A stretch of 64,000 bases of DNA from Ruegeria conchae (GTDB lineage Bacteria > Pseudomonadota > Alphaproteobacteria > Rhodobacterales > Rhodobacteraceae). Location: the NCBI RefSeq assembly GCF_000192475.1, contig NZ_AEYW01000013.1, positions 248,001 to 312,000 on the forward strand, in the 5' to 3' direction. The position numbers and the translations under genes are program-made. The notes under the pieces are model-generated. The model made no database searches. It worked only from the letters and a program-made list of their open reading frames with translations, and was not told the origin of the DNA. This document shows, piece after piece, positions 10,955 through 52,375 of this stretch. Within the stretch, counting starts at the first letter, position 1. Every line of letters begins with the position of its first letter.

Positions 10955-11352
10955 GCGCGGAGGGCCGGATGGCCGCTGGGGCATATGCCCGAGAGGAAAG
11001 TCCGGACTCCACAAGGCAACGGTGCCGGGTAACGCCCGGGCGGGGAAACCCGACGGAAAGCGCCACAGAAATCAGACCGCCGCGGGCCTTGGCCCGAGGT
11101 AAGGGTGAAACGGTGGGGTAAGAGCCCACCGCGCCGCTGGCAACAGTGGCGGCACGGCAAGCCCCACCGGGAGCAATGCCGAATAGGGTCCCCGCGCGGG
11201 CCGGTCGGTGCAAACCGATACCGCCGCTAGGCTCGCTTTGGCCGAGAGGGACCGGGTTGGCAGCTTGAGCCGCGCAGCAATGCACGGCCTAGAGGAATGG
11301 TCATCGAAGGGGGCAACCCCGGAACAGGATCCGGCTTACAGGCCCTCCGCGC
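10955..11352 (+). ncRNA. rnpB: RNase P RNA, type A
   Basis: About 398 bases. The ends pair perfectly: GCGCGGAGGGCC at 10955 with GGCCCTCCGCGC ending at 11352 (helix P1). Core landmarks are visible: GAGAGGAAAGTCCGGACTCC after P2-P3, CACAGAAA, GGTAAGGGTGAAACGGTGGGGTAAGAGC (cited in part), and near the 3' end the ACAGGATCCGGCTTACAGGCC region. This is the catalytic RNA that trims tRNA 5' leaders. Short ORFs called across it on both strands are shadows. Confidence 0.97.
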
Positions 11353-11360
11353 ATAATTCC

Positions 11361-26211: not shown

Positions 26212-26958
26212 ATGCCTTTTCCAAAACTCGGACAGGCCATTGTGGCCGGAGCAGTTGTATTGGCTCTGCTGGGCAGCCAGAGCCACGCCGGATCGGTGAC
26301 AGGCACAGCGACATATCGTGAACGGATCGCTCTGCCACCGGACGCAACACTGTATGTCGAATTACAGGATATCTCGCGGGCGGACGCGGCTGCCGTGACA
26401 CTGGCAGCGCAGCGCTACGCTCTGAACGGCGTGCCATCAGAGTTTGAGTTGTCGTTTGATGATGCGCTGATCCACGAAGGAATGACCTATGCGGTCCGGG
26501 GTGCAATCTATCGTGGAGAGGAGCTGCTGTTTACGACCGATACGATTCACCCGGTGTTGACCAACGGAGAAGGCAGTTCCGCAGACCTGATACTGGTGCA
26601 GGCGCACGATCAGAGCGCCGCGACACTAGAAGGCACTGAATGGGTGGCCATCGGAATAGATGGAGAGGTGTTGGACGCAAAGCGCCCGCCACAGCTTTCA
26701 TTTGCTCAAGGCGGAGCGTTCGGCGGTACAGGCGGTTGCAATCGGTTTACCGGACAAGCCGAAATCATCGGCAATAGCATAGAATTTCCTGAGAATATGG
26801 CTGCCACTTTGATGGCGTGCCCACCAGAAATGGAAGAGATTGAAGATCAATTTCTAGCCGCTTTGCAAAGTGTAACCACTTATGCGGTTGCCGGTGACAG
26901 TCTGGTTATGCTCGACGCCGCAGGCGAACCTGTCCTGAAGTTTGTGCGCAACCAGTAA
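26212..26958 (+). CDS. Exported YbaY-META two-domain protein
   Basis: A protein of 248 residues. Signal peptide about 1-26 (ending SQSHA). Residues about 27-125 resemble YbaY (GSVTGTATYRERIALPPDA). Residues about 140-248 are a META/HslJ domain (LEGTEWVA..., GGTGGCNRFTGQ, MACPPEMEEIEDQFL). Both families are envelope proteins of unknown function linked to stress or novobiocin resistance (HslJ). GAGAGG precedes the ATG. Its stop abuts the stop of the convergent FAD dehydrogenase with no gap. Confidence 0.85.
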   Translation: MPFPKLGQAIVAGAVVLALLGSQSHAGSVTGTATYRERIALPPDATLYVELQDISRADAAAVTLAAQRYALNGVPSEFELSFDDALIHEGMTYAVRGAIYRGEELLFTTDTIHPVLTNGEGSSADLILVQAHDQSAATLEGTEWVAIGIDGEVLDAKRPPQLSFAQGGAFGGTGGCNRFTGQAEIIGNSIEFPENMAATLMACPPEMEEIEDQFLAALQSVTTYAVAGDSLVMLDAAGEPVLKFVRNQ

Positions 26959-41247: not shown

Positions 41248-42648
41248 TCAGGTGACTTCGTATGGAAGGATACTGCGGATATCGGAGTTGATGGTCAGGC
41301 GGCGTTCGAGTGGCGGTACTGAACGCTGATGACAGGTCTGGCGTTCGCATATGCGACAGGAGATGCCGATCGGTTCGTATGCACTGGCGTTGTTAATATC
41401 GAGATTGTCGGCGTAGACCAAAGCTTCGGCGTGGCGCACTTCGCACCCCAATGCGATGGCATAGCGACGAACGGGTGCGCCGAAGGAACCGCCGGATTTC
41501 GATACATCGCGCGCCAGTGAGATATATCGTACACCGTCTGGTGTTTCTGCCAGCTGCTGCAGAAAGTGGCCCGGAGTTTCAAAGGCACGGTGAACGTTCC
41601 ACAAGGGGCAGGCCCCGCCGAAGCGTGCGAATTGAAGCCGAGTGGCCGAATGGCGTTTAGTGATCGTTCCGGCCTGATCGACCCGGACAAAGAAGAACGG
41701 GATGCCTTTGGCCCCCGGTCGCTGCAAGGTGGAAAGACGGTGCGCGACCTGTTCGATGGATGCCCCGAACCGATTGCTGAGCAATTCCAGATCGTGACGA
41801 TAGTCCTGCGCAGCACTTAAGAACAGACCATATGGCATCAGGGACGCCCCGGCGAAGTAGTTTGCGAGGCCAATCTTGGCAATCGCACGGGCCTCTTCAC
41901 TTTGGAAGCGCGCGAAGTCGAGCGTTGCCTCAAGCAGTTTGTCCTGACTGATCAGCGCGACCTGCAGCAAAAGCTGGAAGACTTGTGTTTGCGGAGCTGC
42001 GCGTGAAGAAAGGCGCAGTGTCTTATCATCCGCGTTGTAGCTACGTAGGATCTCGGTATCGGTGAAGGTGACGTGGATTCCTCGTTCGGTCAGGCTGTTG
42101 ATCGCTGCCTGACGAATGCCACCGAATTCATCAGCGCGACTTGCGAACCGTTCAGCTGCCCGGTCAACGGCGTCAATGTAATTGTCGCAATAGTGAAAGA
42201 AATCACGCACTTCTTCCCAAGGGCTGGCTTGAATGCGGGCGTCTTCCCGACCTAATGCTTCGTCCAAAGAAGCCAGACGTTCATGAGTTTGGCGATAGCT
42301 TCGATGCAATTCAATGAATGCGCGGGCCAGCGCTGGGGCATTTGATGCGGTCAGCCGCAGGTCAGCCAATGGGGGCATGGTGTCAGCAAAAACCGGATCG
42401 GCAAGCGCCTCGCGCATGTCCGAAACCAGGCGCTCACTATCGCCCGTGCTAAGCTCGGTCACGTCCATGCCGAACTCTTGCGCCAGCGCCAAAACAACTG
42501 TCGTTGAAATCGGACGGTTGTTGTTCTCCATCTGGTTTAGATATGGCAGAGAAACGCCTAGTTTTGTTGCAAATTCCTTTTGGGTCAGAGATAGCCGGGT
42601 CCGCATCTCACGCAGTTTTGCGCCTGCATAGAGTTTTTGAGTAGCCAT
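41248..42648 (-). CDS. scfR: Short-chain fatty acyl-CoA regulator (ScfR/PccR/RamB type)
   Basis: A protein of 466 residues. N-terminal XRE helix-turn-helix (about 8-65, LREMRTRLSLTQKEFATKLG), an IrrE/DUF955-like middle, and a C-terminal cysteine-rich end, ISCRICERQTCHQR, typical of ScfR proteins. In Rhodobacter sphaeroides the homologue PccR activates propionyl-CoA carboxylase and senses acyl-CoA. The ATG at 42648 was preferred to a TTG five codons upstream. TTTGCAA boxes lie directly before its start and before pccB, as expected for autoregulation and control of the locus. Confidence 0.93.
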   Translation of the reverse strand: MATQKLYAGAKLREMRTRLSLTQKEFATKLGVSLPYLNQMENNNRPISTTVVLALAQEFGMDVTELSTGDSERLVSDMREALADPVFADTMPPLADLRLTASNAPALARAFIELHRSYRQTHERLASLDEALGREDARIQASPWEEVRDFFHYCDNYIDAVDRAAERFASRADEFGGIRQAAINSLTERGIHVTFTDTEILRSYNADDKTLRLSSRAAPQTQVFQLLLQVALISQDKLLEATLDFARFQSEEARAIAKIGLANYFAGASLMPYGLFLSAAQDYRHDLELLSNRFGASIEQVAHRLSTLQRPGAKGIPFFFVRVDQAGTITKRHSATRLQFARFGGACPLWNVHRAFETPGHFLQQLAETPDGVRYISLARDVSKSGGSFGAPVRRYAIALGCEVRHAEALVYADNLDINNASAYEPIGISCRICERQTCHQRSVPPLERRLTINSDIRSILPYEVT

Positions 42649-42656
42649 GTTAGTTC

Positions 42657-42694
42657 TTTGCAACTTAACTGATTGCTCAAGTTAACTTTGCAAA
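42657..42694. promoter_or_regulatory. Likely ScfR boxes before scfR
   Basis: TTTGCAA (42657-42663) and TTTGCAAA (42687-42694) flank a near-palindromic TTAACT...AGTTAA, with a further TTGC at 42673. RamB/ScfR proteins bind TTTGCAAA-type sites. Confidence 0.6.
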
Positions 42695-43979: not shown

Positions 43980-44032
43980 TTTACAAATTTGCAATTACCA
44001 CCTGCTTGATTTTCTTATGTTTGCAAATTTGC
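43980..44032. promoter_or_regulatory. Two likely ScfR boxes before pccB
   Basis: TTTACAAATTTGCAA (43980-43994) and TTTGCAAATTTGC (44020-44032), spaced 40 bases start to start, about 70-120 bases before the pccB ATG. Confidence 0.65.
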
Positions 44033-46611: not shown

Positions 46612-46697
46612 ATTTGCCCACCGCAGCTGCATATCAAGTTCGACCAACCCAAATTGGTGGAGCCCTGCCCGCGAACAGGCAGGGCACTTGGGGCAAG

Positions 46698-47849
46698 TCA
46701 GAAGTTCAGCTGTGCGGCCAACTGAATACGGTTGCCATCGAAAGTGTCACCCGAAATCGTATCGTTCCGCTCGCCATAGATGTATTCGGCGCTCAATGTC
46801 AGATTGTCAGTTGCTTTGTAGAACGCATTGACATGGATGGTCTCAAGCTCGGTGAAGGACAAACTTCCTGTCGAGGTGGGCAGGTCGTAATCTTCCTTAC
46901 CGTAGGAGATGCCCACGTTCCATTTGGGGGTCAAATCTTGACGAAACTCGATGGTATACCCGTCGACATCGTTCGCCTGACCGCCAACAATCGCGTCACC
47001 CAAACCGATCAGGTAGGGGCCGATCGCTTCACCGTTGACGTAGTTGACTTGGAACAGGCCACCTTGCCAGGGACGGATCGAACCAGAAAGGGTAAAGCCG
47101 GTCTGATCCACTTCGACATCGCCGGATTGGGCTTTGCCGTACAAAACCGAGGCGCGCGCCAGGTATTTGCCGTCGTTATACTCGACCGCACCAGTCAGCA
47201 CCGGATCATCCGAGTTCGAACCTCCGACGTTTTCCTCTACAGAAACAGCAAAGGTGGTATTCGATCCGAAGCCGTTAGTGTATCGAACCTGAGGAACACG
47301 GGCAAAAGGGATGCCGACCGGTCCATTGAACTCAACTGTGGTGGGGTAAGTGTCCAGAGGCTGGAAATTAGTCCAGTACTGACCGATGAGCCATTGTTCA
47401 CCAATCCGGATATTCGCGTGACGAATGCGGAATTCTGCTGTACCGCCCGAGCCGAAAGCATCCACTTCGATCTGACCCTGGATGTCGCCAATGCCGCTTG
47501 GTGTGTTGGTACGCAGTCCGATTCGCGATTGCCGAACGGTGGCGCCAAATGTGCCATCGGTTTCGGCCGAGGGCTCACCTATGACATTCACAAACGCTGT
47601 GTCGCCCTGATCATATTCGAAGTCGTAGAAGAAATCGGCTTTGACATAGCCATAGACGTCCAGCGTGGTGTTTCCGATCCTCAGATCACCGGTCCCGGCT
47701 CCGGGCTTGGACGATTCCAAAGCCTCGACTCTTGCGCGAAGCGCATCGAGTTCAGCCTGAGTTTGTGCATCTTGCGCCAAGGCCTGCATTCCGGTCACGG
47801 AAAGCGTGCTGGCAGCAAGCAGGCTAGCAGTTTTGCCCTTTATTATCAT
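46698..47849 (-). CDS. DcaP-like outer-membrane porin
   Basis: A protein of 383 residues. Signal peptide about 1-25 (ending MQALA), then a short coiled coil, QAELDALRARVEALE, then a beta-barrel with alternating hydrophobic strands and a terminal Phe (LAAQLNF). This layout is typical of the DcaP trimeric porins that take up dicarboxylates and related anions. AAGGA precedes the ATG. It is transcribed against both the pccB and pccA units, so it has its own promoter in the 650-base gap. Confidence 0.88.
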   Translation of the reverse strand: MIIKGKTASLLAASTLSVTGMQALAQDAQTQAELDALRARVEALESSKPGAGTGDLRIGNTTLDVYGYVKADFFYDFEYDQGDTAFVNVIGEPSAETDGTFGATVRQSRIGLRTNTPSGIGDIQGQIEVDAFGSGGTAEFRIRHANIRIGEQWLIGQYWTNFQPLDTYPTTVEFNGPVGIPFARVPQVRYTNGFGSNTTFAVSVEENVGGSNSDDPVLTGAVEYNDGKYLARASVLYGKAQSGDVEVDQTGFTLSGSIRPWQGGLFQVNYVNGEAIGPYLIGLGDAIVGGQANDVDGYTIEFRQDLTPKWNVGISYGKEDYDLPTSTGSLSFTELETIHVNAFYKATDNLTLSAEYIYGERNDTISGDTFDGNRIQLAAQLNF

Positions 47850-48237
47850 GGGGATATTTCCTTGTTTGCGAGTGTGCACCGGCACCGTTTCACGCATAAG
47901 AGCCCGGGGAAAATCACCAATCTGCGAGGAATTCTGCGCAGTTTTTCAAGTAACCGTGTCAAGAATGGCTCGTGCTTTCACAGCTCGGTGAAAGCTCAGG
48001 ATAAGCGCCTGGCCCCTGTAGATTTTCTTAGTGGACTTCCGAAAGCAACGCGTGAGGTATACCGCCGTGTTGGCCATCATCCGGCCGAGTATCGTCACAT
48101 GAACGTGACTGGCATGAGCAGGGAATTCGGGGGTGCAGGGCGATATGGTGTCGGCGCAAAGTTGCGCGGACGCGCTGCCGGTGGGCAAGTTTTAGCCGGA
48201 ATCTCAAACGGAAACGAAGATGGGTTTGCGCTGCAAA

Positions 48238-48370
48238 TTGTGCTGTGCACAGTGAAGGGGCCGTGCGGCTCTACTTTGCCTGCGTCGCACAAGCACCTAC
48301 TATTCCGTACCCCTTCCTTCCGCGGGCAGGCTTGTGTTCCCCACAGAGCTCTGTCCGCGGTTTTCTTTTT
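48238..48370 (+). ncRNA. Candidate structured small RNA upstream of pccA
   Basis: An orphan Rho-independent terminator ends a stretch with nested pairing: GAAGGGG (48254-48260) with CCCCTTC (48310-48316) encloses GTGCGGC (48263-48269) with GTCGCAC (48284-48290, one G:U). No gene lies upstream on this strand for more than 1.6 kb. The 5' end is not defined; TTTGC-GCT-GCAAA (48225-48237) just upstream could be a promoter-proximal ScfR-like site. I could not match it to 6S, SRP or tmRNA. Confidence 0.45.
48320..48370 (+). terminator. Strong orphan terminator
   Basis: CCGCGGGCAG (48320-48329) and CTGTCCGCGG (48351-48360) pair fully with one G:U and are followed by TTTTCTTTTT. The enclosed loop can extend the stem through TGTG/CACA. 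Confidence 0.8.
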
Positions 48371-48415
48371 GGCGAACACAGTCCAAAAACGGCAAGAAAC
48401 TGCGCAATTCAGTGG

Positions 48416-48440
48416 TTTGCAACCTCTGTTATTGCATAAC
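48416..48440. promoter_or_regulatory. Possible ScfR box before the lipoprotein-pccA unit
   Basis: TTTGCAACCTCTGTTATTGC with AA three bases on. It aligns with the scfR upstream site, TTTGCAACTTAACTGATTGC, with the same 16-base phase between the two TTGC elements. Confidence 0.5.
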
Positions 48441-48499
48441 AATGCCGGAATTCGGCATCTGCCCTCAAAGACTTTGAGAAACCAAAAAGGGCAGAAAAC

Positions 48500-48703
48500 A
48501 TGCAAAAATCACGAATCTTCCTTGCGTTGGCGACATGCGCCGGCCTTGTGGCCTGTGGTGACACAACGGGCGAGCAGGCGATCCTTGGTGGCGGCGCAGG
48601 CGCGGTCGGGGCTGCGGTCCTCAATGCAGATCCGCTGTTTGGCGCAGCGGTCGGTGCTGCGGGGAACGTGCTGTACTGCAAAACCCAAAACACCTGTAAC
48701 TAA
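48500..48703 (+). CDS. Small glycine-rich lipoprotein
   Basis: A protein of 67 residues. MQKSRIFLALATCAGLVACG has a lipobox with Cys19. The mature part is a Gly/Ala-rich stretch (LGGGAGAVGAAVL, FGAAVGAAGNVL) like a glycine-zipper segment, ending with a Cys pair, YCKTQNTC. Unknown role. It lies 117 bases before pccA on the same strand and probably shares its promoter. Confidence 0.78.
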   Translation: MQKSRIFLALATCAGLVACGDTTGEQAILGGGAGAVGAAVLNADPLFGAAVGAAGNVLYCKTQNTCN

Positions 48704-48820
48704 CGCTGAATTTATCGGGGCAGCCAACACCCCGTCCGTCATCACGCATCACGCCGTCGTGGGGTCAACACCCTGAGGCGGCGTTTTGCGTTTCCAGAAC
48801 TTCAATCCAAAGGACGTTCC

Positions 48821-50866
48821 ATGTTCAACAAGATCCTGATCGCAAACCGGGGCGAGATTGCCTGCCGGGTCATCAAGACTGCCCGCAAGATGGGCATTGG
48901 CACGGTCGCCATCTATTCTGATGCTGACAGGAACGCCCTGCACGTGTCGATGGCGGATGAGGCCGTGCATATAGGTCCACCACCGGCCAATCAGTCATAC
49001 ATTGTCATCGACAAGGTAATGGACGCCATCCGTCAAAGTGGTGCGCAGGCTGTCCACCCCGGCTATGGCTTTCTGTCCGAGAATTCCAAGTTTGCTGAAG
49101 CGCTGGATGCCGAAGGCGTCGCCTTTGTCGGCCCACCGGTTGGTGCGATCGAAAGCATGGGTGATAAGATCACCTCGAAGAAGATCGCACAGGAGGCCGG
49201 GGTTTCGACGGTCCCCGGCTACATGGGGCTGATTGAAGACGCTGATGAGGCGGTGAAGATATCGAACGATATCGGGTATCCGGTGATGATCAAGGCCAGC
49301 GCTGGCGGCGGTGGTAAGGGCATGCGGATCGCGTGGAATGATGAAGAAGCGCGGGAAGGCTTCCAATCTTCCAAGAACGAGGCTGCAAATTCCTTTGGCG
49401 ATGACCGGATTTTCATTGAGAAATTCGTGACCCAACCGCGCCACATAGAAATTCAGGTCCTGTGCGACAGCCATGGCAACGGCATCTATTTGGGCGAGCG
49501 TGAATGCTCGATCCAGCGCCGGAACCAGAAGGTTGTAGAAGAGGCGCCTTCGCCCTTCCTTGATCCTGAAACCCGAAAAGCGATGGGAGAACAGGCGGTC
49601 GCGCTGGCCAAGGCCGTGGACTATGCCAGTGCTGGAACGGTCGAATTCATCGTGGATGGGGAAAAGAACTTTTACTTCCTTGAAATGAACACCCGCCTTC
49701 AGGTGGAACACCCTGTGACCGAGCTGATTACCGGTGTTGATCTGGTGGAACAGATGATCCGTGTGGCTGCTGGTGAAAAGCTGACCATCACTCAGGATAA
49801 CGTGACCTTGACGGGTTGGGCCATCGAGAACCGTCTTTATGCCGAGGATCCGTATCGCGGCTTCTTGCCCTCGATTGGCCGCCTGACCCGTTATCGCCCA
49901 CCGCAGGAAATCGCCGCTGGCCCGTTGCTGGTGAATGACAAATGGCAAGGCGATGCGCCCAAAGGGGATAGCGCTGTACGTAACGATACCGGCGTCTATG
50001 AAGGCGGCGAGATCAGTATGTATTATGACCCGATGATCGCCAAGCTGTGCACTTGGGCGCCGACCCGCGAGCAGGCGATCGAAGCCATGCGTGTGGCGCT
50101 CGACAGTTTTGAGGTTGAAGGCATCGGTCACAATCTACCGTTCCTGTCAGCGGTTATGGACCACCCGAAATTCGTTAGCGGTGATATGACGACCGCCTTC
50201 ATCGCCGAGGAGTATCCTGACGGATTTGAGGGTGTGGAATTGCCTGAAGCTGACCTGCGCCGAGTCGCTGCATCGTGCGCAGCGATGCACCGCGTGGCCG
50301 AGATTCGCCGTACACGGGTGTCGGGGCGGATGGACAATCATGAACGCAAGGTTGGAACAGATTGGGTCGTCTCGCTGCAAGGGCAAGAGTTCGAGGTTGC
50401 GATAGAGGCCGATCAGGATGGCTCCACCGTGTCGTTTGCAGATGGCACGAAGCACCGTGTCGCCTCCGATTGGACACCGGGTGATCAGCTTGCAGTGCTC
50501 GATGTCGATGGCAGCCCACTGGTTCTGAAGGTCGGCAAAGTGTCGGGCGGATTTCGCGTCCGCAACCGCGGCGCGGATCTCAAGGTGCATGTTCGCACCC
50601 CACGTCAGGCCGAATTGGCCCGGATGATGCCCGAGAAGCTGCCGCCTGATACATCCAAGATGCTGCTCTGCCCGATGCCCGGCCTGATCGTGAAGATCGA
50701 TGTCGAAGTGGGGCAGGAGGTACAGGAGGGTCAGGCGCTTTGCACCGTCGAGGCGATGAAGATGGAGAACATCCTGCGCGCTGAGAAGAAAGGCGTTGTC
50801 TCCAAAATCAATGCTGGTCCCGGCGACAGCCTTGCCGTTGACGATGTGATTATCGAGTTCGAATGA
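48821..50866 (+). CDS. pccA: Propionyl-CoA carboxylase, biotin-containing (alpha) subunit
   Basis: A protein of 681 residues: biotin carboxylase domain (about 1-450) with ATP-grasp loop ASAGGGGKGMR, a linker BT domain (about 480-600) and a biotinyl domain at the end with the biotin Lys647 in EAMKMEN. It carboxylates its own biotin and hands CO2 to PccB. It resembles actinobacterial-type/roseobacter PccA in length. Gene order pccB ... pccA ... mcm places it in methylmalonyl-CoA metabolism. Confidence 0.96.
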   Translation: MFNKILIANRGEIACRVIKTARKMGIGTVAIYSDADRNALHVSMADEAVHIGPPPANQSYIVIDKVMDAIRQSGAQAVHPGYGFLSENSKFAEALDAEGVAFVGPPVGAIESMGDKITSKKIAQEAGVSTVPGYMGLIEDADEAVKISNDIGYPVMIKASAGGGGKGMRIAWNDEEAREGFQSSKNEAANSFGDDRIFIEKFVTQPRHIEIQVLCDSHGNGIYLGERECSIQRRNQKVVEEAPSPFLDPETRKAMGEQAVALAKAVDYASAGTVEFIVDGEKNFYFLEMNTRLQVEHPVTELITGVDLVEQMIRVAAGEKLTITQDNVTLTGWAIENRLYAEDPYRGFLPSIGRLTRYRPPQEIAAGPLLVNDKWQGDAPKGDSAVRNDTGVYEGGEISMYYDPMIAKLCTWAPTREQAIEAMRVALDSFEVEGIGHNLPFLSAVMDHPKFVSGDMTTAFIAEEYPDGFEGVELPEADLRRVAASCAAMHRVAEIRRTRVSGRMDNHERKVGTDWVVSLQGQEFEVAIEADQDGSTVSFADGTKHRVASDWTPGDQLAVLDVDGSPLVLKVGKVSGGFRVRNRGADLKVHVRTPRQAELARMMPEKLPPDTSKMLLCPMPGLIVKIDVEVGQEVQEGQALCTVEAMKMENILRAEKKGVVSKINAGPGDSLAVDDVIIEFE

Positions 50867-51559: not shown

Positions 51560-52375
51560 ATGGAGATCATCCTGCATTGCGGCGCACACAGGTGCGCAAC
51601 CACCAGCTTTCAAAACTATCTAAGCAGGAATGAGAACACGCTGGCTGAGCAAGGGTTGGTCTATTGGGGGCCTGAACGCACACGTGCCAACGGTTTGAAT
51701 AGCCTGAACAAATTGACGCCAGATGTTTGTGACGCGCTACGCCGTGATCTGGATGCGTGTCGGCGTGCGGGTGCCAAGCAGCTATTGGTAAGTCAAGAGA
51801 ACTTCGTAGGTTCTATGGAGCGTAATATTGCATTCGCCTCGCTTTATCCCAGCATGCACGAGCGTAGTCTGCTGCTCGCGAAGGCCTTTGATGAAGGGGT
51901 TGGCAAATTGGCTCTGAATATCCGGGCATTGGATATGTATTGGTCTTCCGTTTCAGCCTATAAATTCAAACGCGGAAGTGAGCCGATTGAGCCCGCCAAA
52001 TGGAAACGTATCACTCAGAGCAAGCGGAGCTGGCGAAATGTGATTGCGGAGATGGGCCGCGCGTTTCCGGGCGTTCCGCTACTAGTCTTGCCCTTCGAAG
52101 ATTTTGCGGGCCATCAGCGTGCACAGCTTGAGGCTTTGACCGGGCGCGCGGCACCCGAGGACAACGACGGCCTTTCACTGAATGCCGCGCCACATCCTGC
52201 CCCTCACGGCCTAAACGCAGATCAGGCGATGAAGCTGTGGTCCGATTATGCGGATGATCTGGAATGGCTTGCCTCCGGCGCAGACGGCTTGGCCGAGCTT
52301 GTCTGCCGGACAGAAAGAGATACGCGCGGGGTCATCCCCGCGGAACCCCGATTGGAACAGAGGAAATCGACATGA
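51560..52375 (+). CDS. Sulfotransferase-like P-loop protein coupled to mcm
   Basis: A protein of 271 residues. The N-terminal [20 protein letters not shown] resembles the 5'-PSB loop of PAPS-dependent sulfotransferases (HxGxxRxxTTS). LLVSQENF and VLPFEDF segments and the helical C-terminus are also in line with that fold. The acceptor is unknown. GGGAGGG precedes the ATG by 5-6 bases. The stop overlaps the mcm start (ATGA), so it is the first gene of the mcm transcript. Confidence 0.7.

Follow-up and report, generated by a model that had tools for sequence, protein, structure and literature searches.

Between a porin-type gene and pccA, the Ruegeria conchae genome carries a conserved element that is probably a small RNA of about 110 nt: an independently transcribed, Hfq-type RNA that would act in trans, pairing with other transcripts through an exposed C/U-rich segment. 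The element lies in a 64,000-nt stretch (contig NZ_AEYW01000013.1, positions 248,001 to 312,000 of the forward strand), which was analysed as a whole and is referred to here as the window. A sequence-only reading of the same DNA had already suggested a candidate small RNA at this place, and the wide conservation, two covarying helices, promoter-like motif and terminator described below argue in its favour. The RNA-bearing interval of the Ruegeria window, 48120-48500, has the porin-type gene on one side and pccA on the other, and its features and neighbours are as follows.

46698-47849, minus strand: porin-type gene (Pfam DcaP), divergent
48151-48167, plus strand: box A, TCGGCGCAAAGTTGCGC (family consensus TcGGCatgattntGC), a candidate regulator site; Gibbs motif of 15.3 bits vs. 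6.0 shuffled
48182-48200, plus strand: box B, core GGCAAGTTTTAGCC at 48184 (family consensus ttngGCggnanncnGCcnan); 13.8 bits vs. 5.6 shuffled
48225-48230, plus strand: putative -35 element TTTGCG (family consensus cTTGGC); promoter motif of 11.5 bits vs. 6.3 shuffled
48248-48253, plus strand: putative -10 element CACAGT (family consensus CAnngT), 17 nt after the -35 element and part of the same promoter motif
48260-48370, plus strand: predicted small RNA, about 110 nt; covariance models R1 and R2, with conservation from about 48259
48263-48290, plus strand: 5' hairpin, stem 48263-48269 with 48284-48290; compensatory change in 7 of 7 pairs, 88.8% of cells paired
48300-48317, plus strand: linker CTATTCCGTACCCCTTCC, near-invariant and predicted to be unpaired; the proposed pairing region
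48320-48370, plus strand: intrinsic terminator, stem 48321-48330 with 48350-48359, then TTTTCTTTTT (48361-48370)
48500-48703, plus strand: small lipoprotein-like gene of 67 aa containing LVACGDTTGEQA, read from the sequence, between the RNA and pccA
48821-50866, plus strand: pccA (ORF), propionyl-CoA carboxylase alpha subunit, the constant downstream neighbour of the RNA

Architecture, fold and conservation of the RNA

The ends of the RNA are predicted from the -10 box and the T-run; with the -10 element at 48248, transcription would start near 48260. Over 55 nt, 48318-48372, the folding energy is -27.5 kcal/mol (z -4.84), equalled by 1 of 200 shuffles; the longer stretch 48240-48372 reaches -53.9 kcal/mol (z -3.45), equalled by none of 200. 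The reverse strand of the latter gives a comparable fold (-54.4, z -3.66) because the terminator is palindromic. A simple terminator scan of the window did not list the 48320-48370 hairpin, probably because its stem is bulged. The only plus-strand frame of at least 90 aa that covers the terminator, 46614-48776, runs antisense to the porin gene and in our judgement shows no sign of being a gene, so that the strong hairpin and T-run stand without a gene upstream, as the sequence-only reading had it. That reading had also proposed two nested pairings. The one between 48263 and 48284 is real and conserved; the other, between 48254 and 48310 (GAAGGGG with CCCCTTC), occurs in 1 of the 45 sequences of alignment A1 and falls mostly before the predicted start. 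It had recognised no known RNA class, in agreement with Rfam 15, which has no match at the RNA locus. The only Rfam match at gathering score in the window is an RNase P RNA at 10957-11354 on the plus strand.

Covariation points to a conserved structure. RNAalifold on A1 returned 20 pairs, 15 of them with compensatory change. In the wider alignment A3 (71 rows), all 20 pairs of the two helices show changes on both sides, and 89.3% of cells pair; sliding the partner lowers this to 36-44%. The covariation score of 0.638 compares with 0.187 in shuffles and 0.07-0.12 with the partner slid. In the outer stem of the terminator, 10 of 10 pairs have compensatory changes and 93.4% of cells are paired. 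All these figures lean upward, because A3 had been fitted to the structure and includes, among its 71 rows, one antisense fragment of a terminator. Even so, each of the two helices, 5' hairpin and outer terminator stem, shows covariation on its own.

The most conserved part of the RNA is the linker between these two hairpins. Among the 45 sequences from Ruegeria and close relatives, 16 of its 18 columns are invariant and the other two are conserved in at least 90%. Across the family the core loosens to CCGT[A/T][C/A]CCCTTCC. For a broader count we used 144 homologous rows drawn from alignments A1, A3 and A4, a set that represents 136 distinct places (eight are counted twice), omits rows shorter than 86 nt and includes a few weak matches. 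CCCTTCC or CCCCTTC occurs in 130 of these 144 rows (112 of 125 by distinct core), and CCGT[A/T][C/A]CCC in 106 (89 of 125 by distinct core). The linker is also predicted to be exposed: its mean unpaired probability in the predicted structure of the window RNA is 0.89 vs. 0.42 elsewhere, and in A3 it is 0.76 vs. 0.43 for the rest, the linker being higher in 63 of the 66 rows (out of 71) that could be scored. Complete reading frames inside the RNA are short or missing (median longest 0, maximum 36 codons, none in 85 of the 144 rows). A small-protein reading was rejected, there being no conserved frame in the 144 rows, and the RNA locus is therefore not a conserved coding gene.

Distribution and genomic neighbourhood

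A DNA query covering 48180-48500 matched 37 of 37 Ruegeria genomes and none of 24 genomes of other families; a shorter query matched 9 of 295 genomes across the family. The first 46 loci obtained (45 distinct, L001 and L031 being identical) are all followed on the same strand by pccA, at about 520-590 bases counted from where the match starts. Covariance model R1, built from 45 of them, found matches at E<=0.01 in 44 of 295 family genomes. Although pccA was not used as a criterion in this search, all 30 loci returned have a same-strand pccA, 122 to 771 bases past the end of the match. Close relatives of pccA are present in 279 of the 295 family genomes. We also ran the models on 97 pccA loci, a non-random set of 17 of the 30 loci returned by this pccA search plus 80 upstream regions among its better-scoring matches listed, from which genomes with an R1 locus were left out, bar two. 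R1 matches 42 of these at E<=0.01. Model R2, built from 71 rows, matches 71 of the 97, 40 of which had served, directly or as the same place, to build it; on the 57 pccA-upstream loci outside its training, 31 match at E<=0.01. Order-wide, R2 matches 136 of 196 genomes, its training loci coming in part from some of them. All of the matching genomes belong to Ruegeria's own family, as do the 20 that were listed of the 60 non-matching ones.

All 22 further loci from the order-wide search have a same-strand pccA downstream, and so do 60 of 61 named stretches with the core motif, the remaining one ending 94 bases after the motif. Named records with the most conserved segment are mostly from Ruegeria. 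The placement in a propionyl-CoA locus, proposed from the single sequence, thus recurs as a same-strand pccA downstream of each examined homologue with enough flank. A model search of the 4.49-Mb genome itself gives one strong match and two further ones (E 1.4 and 2.3). In the wider class, 6 of 140 genomes have weak matches outside the family at E<=0.01; no pccA was found at those loci that were fetched, and by eye four of the matches resemble GC-rich terminators while two do not clearly do so. One of these four (L277, E 0.0016) has CCCCTTCC ahead of a GC-rich terminator, with no pccA nearby, and may be either a chance match or a distant relative.

The neighbourhood holds several other elements. 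The lipoprotein-like gene, overlooked in the sequence-only reading, has no Pfam match; tblastn places relatives of it at the same position in 25 of 30 R1-matched loci. On its 5' side, at 48427-48441, lies a near-perfect palindrome, TGTTATTGCATAACA, which reads TGTTATTGAATAACA or TGATATTGAATAACA in several other Ruegeria and has close variants in a few further genera; it is a candidate operator. A third box of the GGC-N7-TGC kind (ACGGCAAGAAACTGCGCA) is located at 48389-48406, between the terminator and the lipoprotein gene, and in several other genera takes the form of a palindrome of the type TCGGCAA-N3/4-TTGCCGA. Beyond pccA and before mcm, 51560-52375 on the plus strand encodes an uncharacterised protein without a Pfam match that has relatives in the pccA loci of other genera.

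Promoter and upstream boxes

The promoter-like motif and boxes A and B come from a Gibbs motif search of 105 upstream regions, with shuffled sequence for comparison. Box B follows box A by 31 bp and contains a loose palindrome at 48184, and the two boxes share GGC-N7-[T/A/G]GC cores. In its own genome the box A pattern has nine matches (the RNA locus and eight others), compared with none for the reversed pattern; the matches are in mixed intergenic and coding places, and this own-genome search did not identify the regulator.

The earlier reading raised a propionate-linked regulatory RNA as a possibility and noted an ScfR-like TTTGC-GCT-GCAAA at 48225. Exact copies of TTTGCAAA, which we take to be the PccR motif, occur in the window at 26862, 42687 and 44020 only. 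The copy at 42687 is upstream of a pccR-like gene (41248-42663, minus strand), by look and place an ScfR-like regulator, and the copy at 44020 is upstream of pccB; these two appear to be the genuine ScfR sites of this region. The sequence at 48225, on the other hand, occurs in 1 of the 144 homologous rows; it overlaps the conserved -35 element and is that element with chance surroundings. ScfR sites are described as commonly consisting of two near-identical boxes and a spacer (accessible text of PMC10370305), a layout that boxes A and B would fit but without the TTTGCAAA letters. With the 48225 site not conserved and TTTGCAAA lacking from the conserved upstream boxes, the proposed propionate link through an ScfR site is not supported: the TTTGCAAA-type operator expected of an ScfR/PccR-regulated promoter is not seen at the promoter of the RNA.

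Proposed function and known RNAs

A promoter-like motif, a U-tailed terminator and a conserved segment predicted to be single-stranded are all present, as in an Hfq-type sRNA, and the own genome has an hfq gene. We consider it probable that the RNA is transcribed from its own promoter, starting near 48260 downstream of two candidate regulator sites, and that transcription would end at 48370, at the intrinsic terminator. The RNA would be closed at its two ends by the 5' and terminator hairpins, which would keep CUAUUCCGUACCCCUUCC (48300-48317) between them open, with Hfq probably carrying the RNA on its U-rich tail. Since the linker resembles an anti-Shine-Dalgarno sequence, pairing at ribosome binding sites is a natural proposal: mRNAs transcribed from other loci would be bound by the C/U-rich segment at G/A-rich stretches that resemble Shine-Dalgarno sequences, which would alter their translation. 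Expression may follow propionyl-CoA metabolism, and the strict association with pccA suggests a connection to carbon metabolism via this intermediate. In roseobacters, propionyl-CoA is fed by DMSP among other sources.

The target searches, covering long complements in Ruegeria genomes and candidate starts in the window, found none. The complement of the 18-nt linker, with up to three mismatches, occurs in the own genome at the RNA locus and at one other place only. A 13-mer complement allowing wobble pairs gave 18 matches beyond the 38 self-matches in 38 Ruegeria genomes, vs. 34 for the reversed control. Scanning candidate starts in the window for duplexes, the best is at 51560 (-25.5 kcal/mol, with the 0.5% background quantile at -24.4), one of many starts tested. 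With the own-species seed, the same duplex in 30 relatives reaches -25.1 in one and -20 to -22 in four, the rest going down to -8.5; this unevenness disfavours 51560 as a target. Because the genome has a single strong copy of the gene and the candidate pairing segment is defined, deletion and target tests should be straightforward.

The main rival explanation, given the constant position ahead of pccA and the example of UpsM, is a cis-acting leader of the lipoprotein and pccA genes, in which the terminator at 48370 sets read-through by attenuation or as a riboswitch and the short RNA is a by-product of termination. A same-strand pccA downstream of each homologue with enough flank would suit such a leader, as would boxes and a promoter in front of the RNA, and UpsM, from the same bacterial family, is described as arising in this way before mraZ (accessible text of PMC5089854). 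A leader of this kind might be expected to have competing folds. However, when the 5' hairpin or the linker is paired with the terminator arms across 70 rows, own energies are like swapped ones: permutations at least as strong number 341, 447, 1671 and 1439 of 2000 for the alternative pairings and 927 for hairpin vs. linker, compared with 0 of 2000 for the terminator arms as positive control. For mutually exclusive terminator and antiterminator folds, none of the pairings tried gave an own-versus-swapped signal. In addition, elements recur after the terminator (a TGCGCA-type box; TGTTATTGAATAACA in Ruegeria; TTGCGGAAC in other genera), as judged by eye among the alignments listed, and these would suit a separate promoter for the lipoprotein gene. 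Rfam has no riboswitch class at gathering score in the window and nothing at E<=5 in 47850-48520. We think a cis-acting leader unlikely. It is quite improbable that the element has two roles, being a metabolite-controlled terminator before the lipoprotein-pccA operon and also, as the terminated product, an RNA that works in trans; if true, short-chain acyl-CoA control in this family would have an RNA arm in addition to the protein regulator PccR.

Three further explanations are less likely than a cis-acting leader. The RNA could bind and titrate a protein, with the linker as the protein site; in favour are the strong conservation of the linker across many genera and the failure of the searches to find a complementary target. 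CsrB-kind titrating RNAs carry many copies of their motif, however; here there is one per RNA, and the resemblance of the core to an anti-Shine-Dalgarno sequence suits mRNA pairing. Titration is thus improbable. That the RNA pairs, in cis or trans, with the ribosome binding sites of the neighbouring lipoprotein or pccA genes is suggested by a possible pairing of its C-rich core with AAGGGG-type Shine-Dalgarno sequences before the lipoprotein gene in several Ruegeria species, but seems highly unlikely: the own duplex is no better than swapped or reversed-motif duplexes, either for the lipoprotein leader (117 distinct pairs; own -11.37, swapped -11.52, reversed -11.75) or for the pccA leader (116 distinct pairs; own -10.59, swapped -10.95, reversed -11.66). 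Finally, the element could be a bare terminator or chance hairpin with no RNA function, given that covariation is usual in intrinsic terminators by themselves and that several weak out-of-family model matches are terminator-like and without pccA. This is highly unlikely: the 5' hairpin covaries separately in 7 of 7 pairs, conservation is greatest in the unpaired linker, and a promoter and two boxes are conserved upstream.

The trans-acting RNA that we favour is of a kind already known, and the RNA family itself is apparently undescribed. A literature search with sequence strings returned only papers unrelated by title. We take pccA of Ruegeria pomeroyi DSS-3 to be SPO1101; strain SZCCDBG043 carries the RNA locus, and DSS-3 may do so too. 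In the accessible text of a DSS-3 study (PMC4809877), intergenic trans-sRNAs, some detected by Northern blot, are reported, and are like the present RNA in being intergenic in a Ruegeria. In the ID order of its Table 1, cis40 at SPO1059 is followed by cis41 at SPO1176 with no entry between, so that, given the assignment of SPO1101, the list appears to hold nothing at the pccA locus; the study is described as leaving out regions resembling 5' UTRs (PMC4809877). The accessible parts of the literature searched, including PMC4809877, PMC5107571, PMC8625941, PMC8307010, PMC5089854 and PMC10370305, supplementary coordinate tables excepted, nowhere name an sRNA at pccA. Earlier detection under another name is possible, for example in a list of 79 R. 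sphaeroides sRNAs, as far as that source is accessible, or among conserved P. denitrificans RNAs such as "intergenic 134" and "intergenic 60" (accessible text of PMC5107571). Two known systems invite closer comparison, as set out below.

CcsR and other alphaproteobacterial sRNAs have C/U-rich CUCCUCCC loops. The RNA described here is similar in exposing a C/U-rich segment that resembles an anti-Shine-Dalgarno sequence, but the core is different, the segment is a linker in a single copy and not in loops, and the locus is another one. CcsR1-4 are described as deriving from the 3' UTR of ccaF1 in Rhodobacter (accessible text of PMC8625941). UpsM (RSs0682) of Rhodobacter sphaeroides, described as 206 nt long, located upstream of mraZ/dcw and confined to Rhodobacteraceae, shares with the present RNA an upstream promoter of its own and an intrinsic terminator shortly before a conserved gene cluster (accessible text of PMC5089854). 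Membership of the UpsM family was considered and rejected, the homologues with enough flank being upstream of pccA and not of mraZ/dcw. Compared by description only, UpsM is a 206-nt RNA of the dcw locus, whereas the RNA here has about 110 nt and a CCGU[A/U][C/A]CCCUUCC linker; and where read-through past UpsM is reported to supply mRNA for the genes that follow, the downstream gene here shows promoter-like elements of its own.
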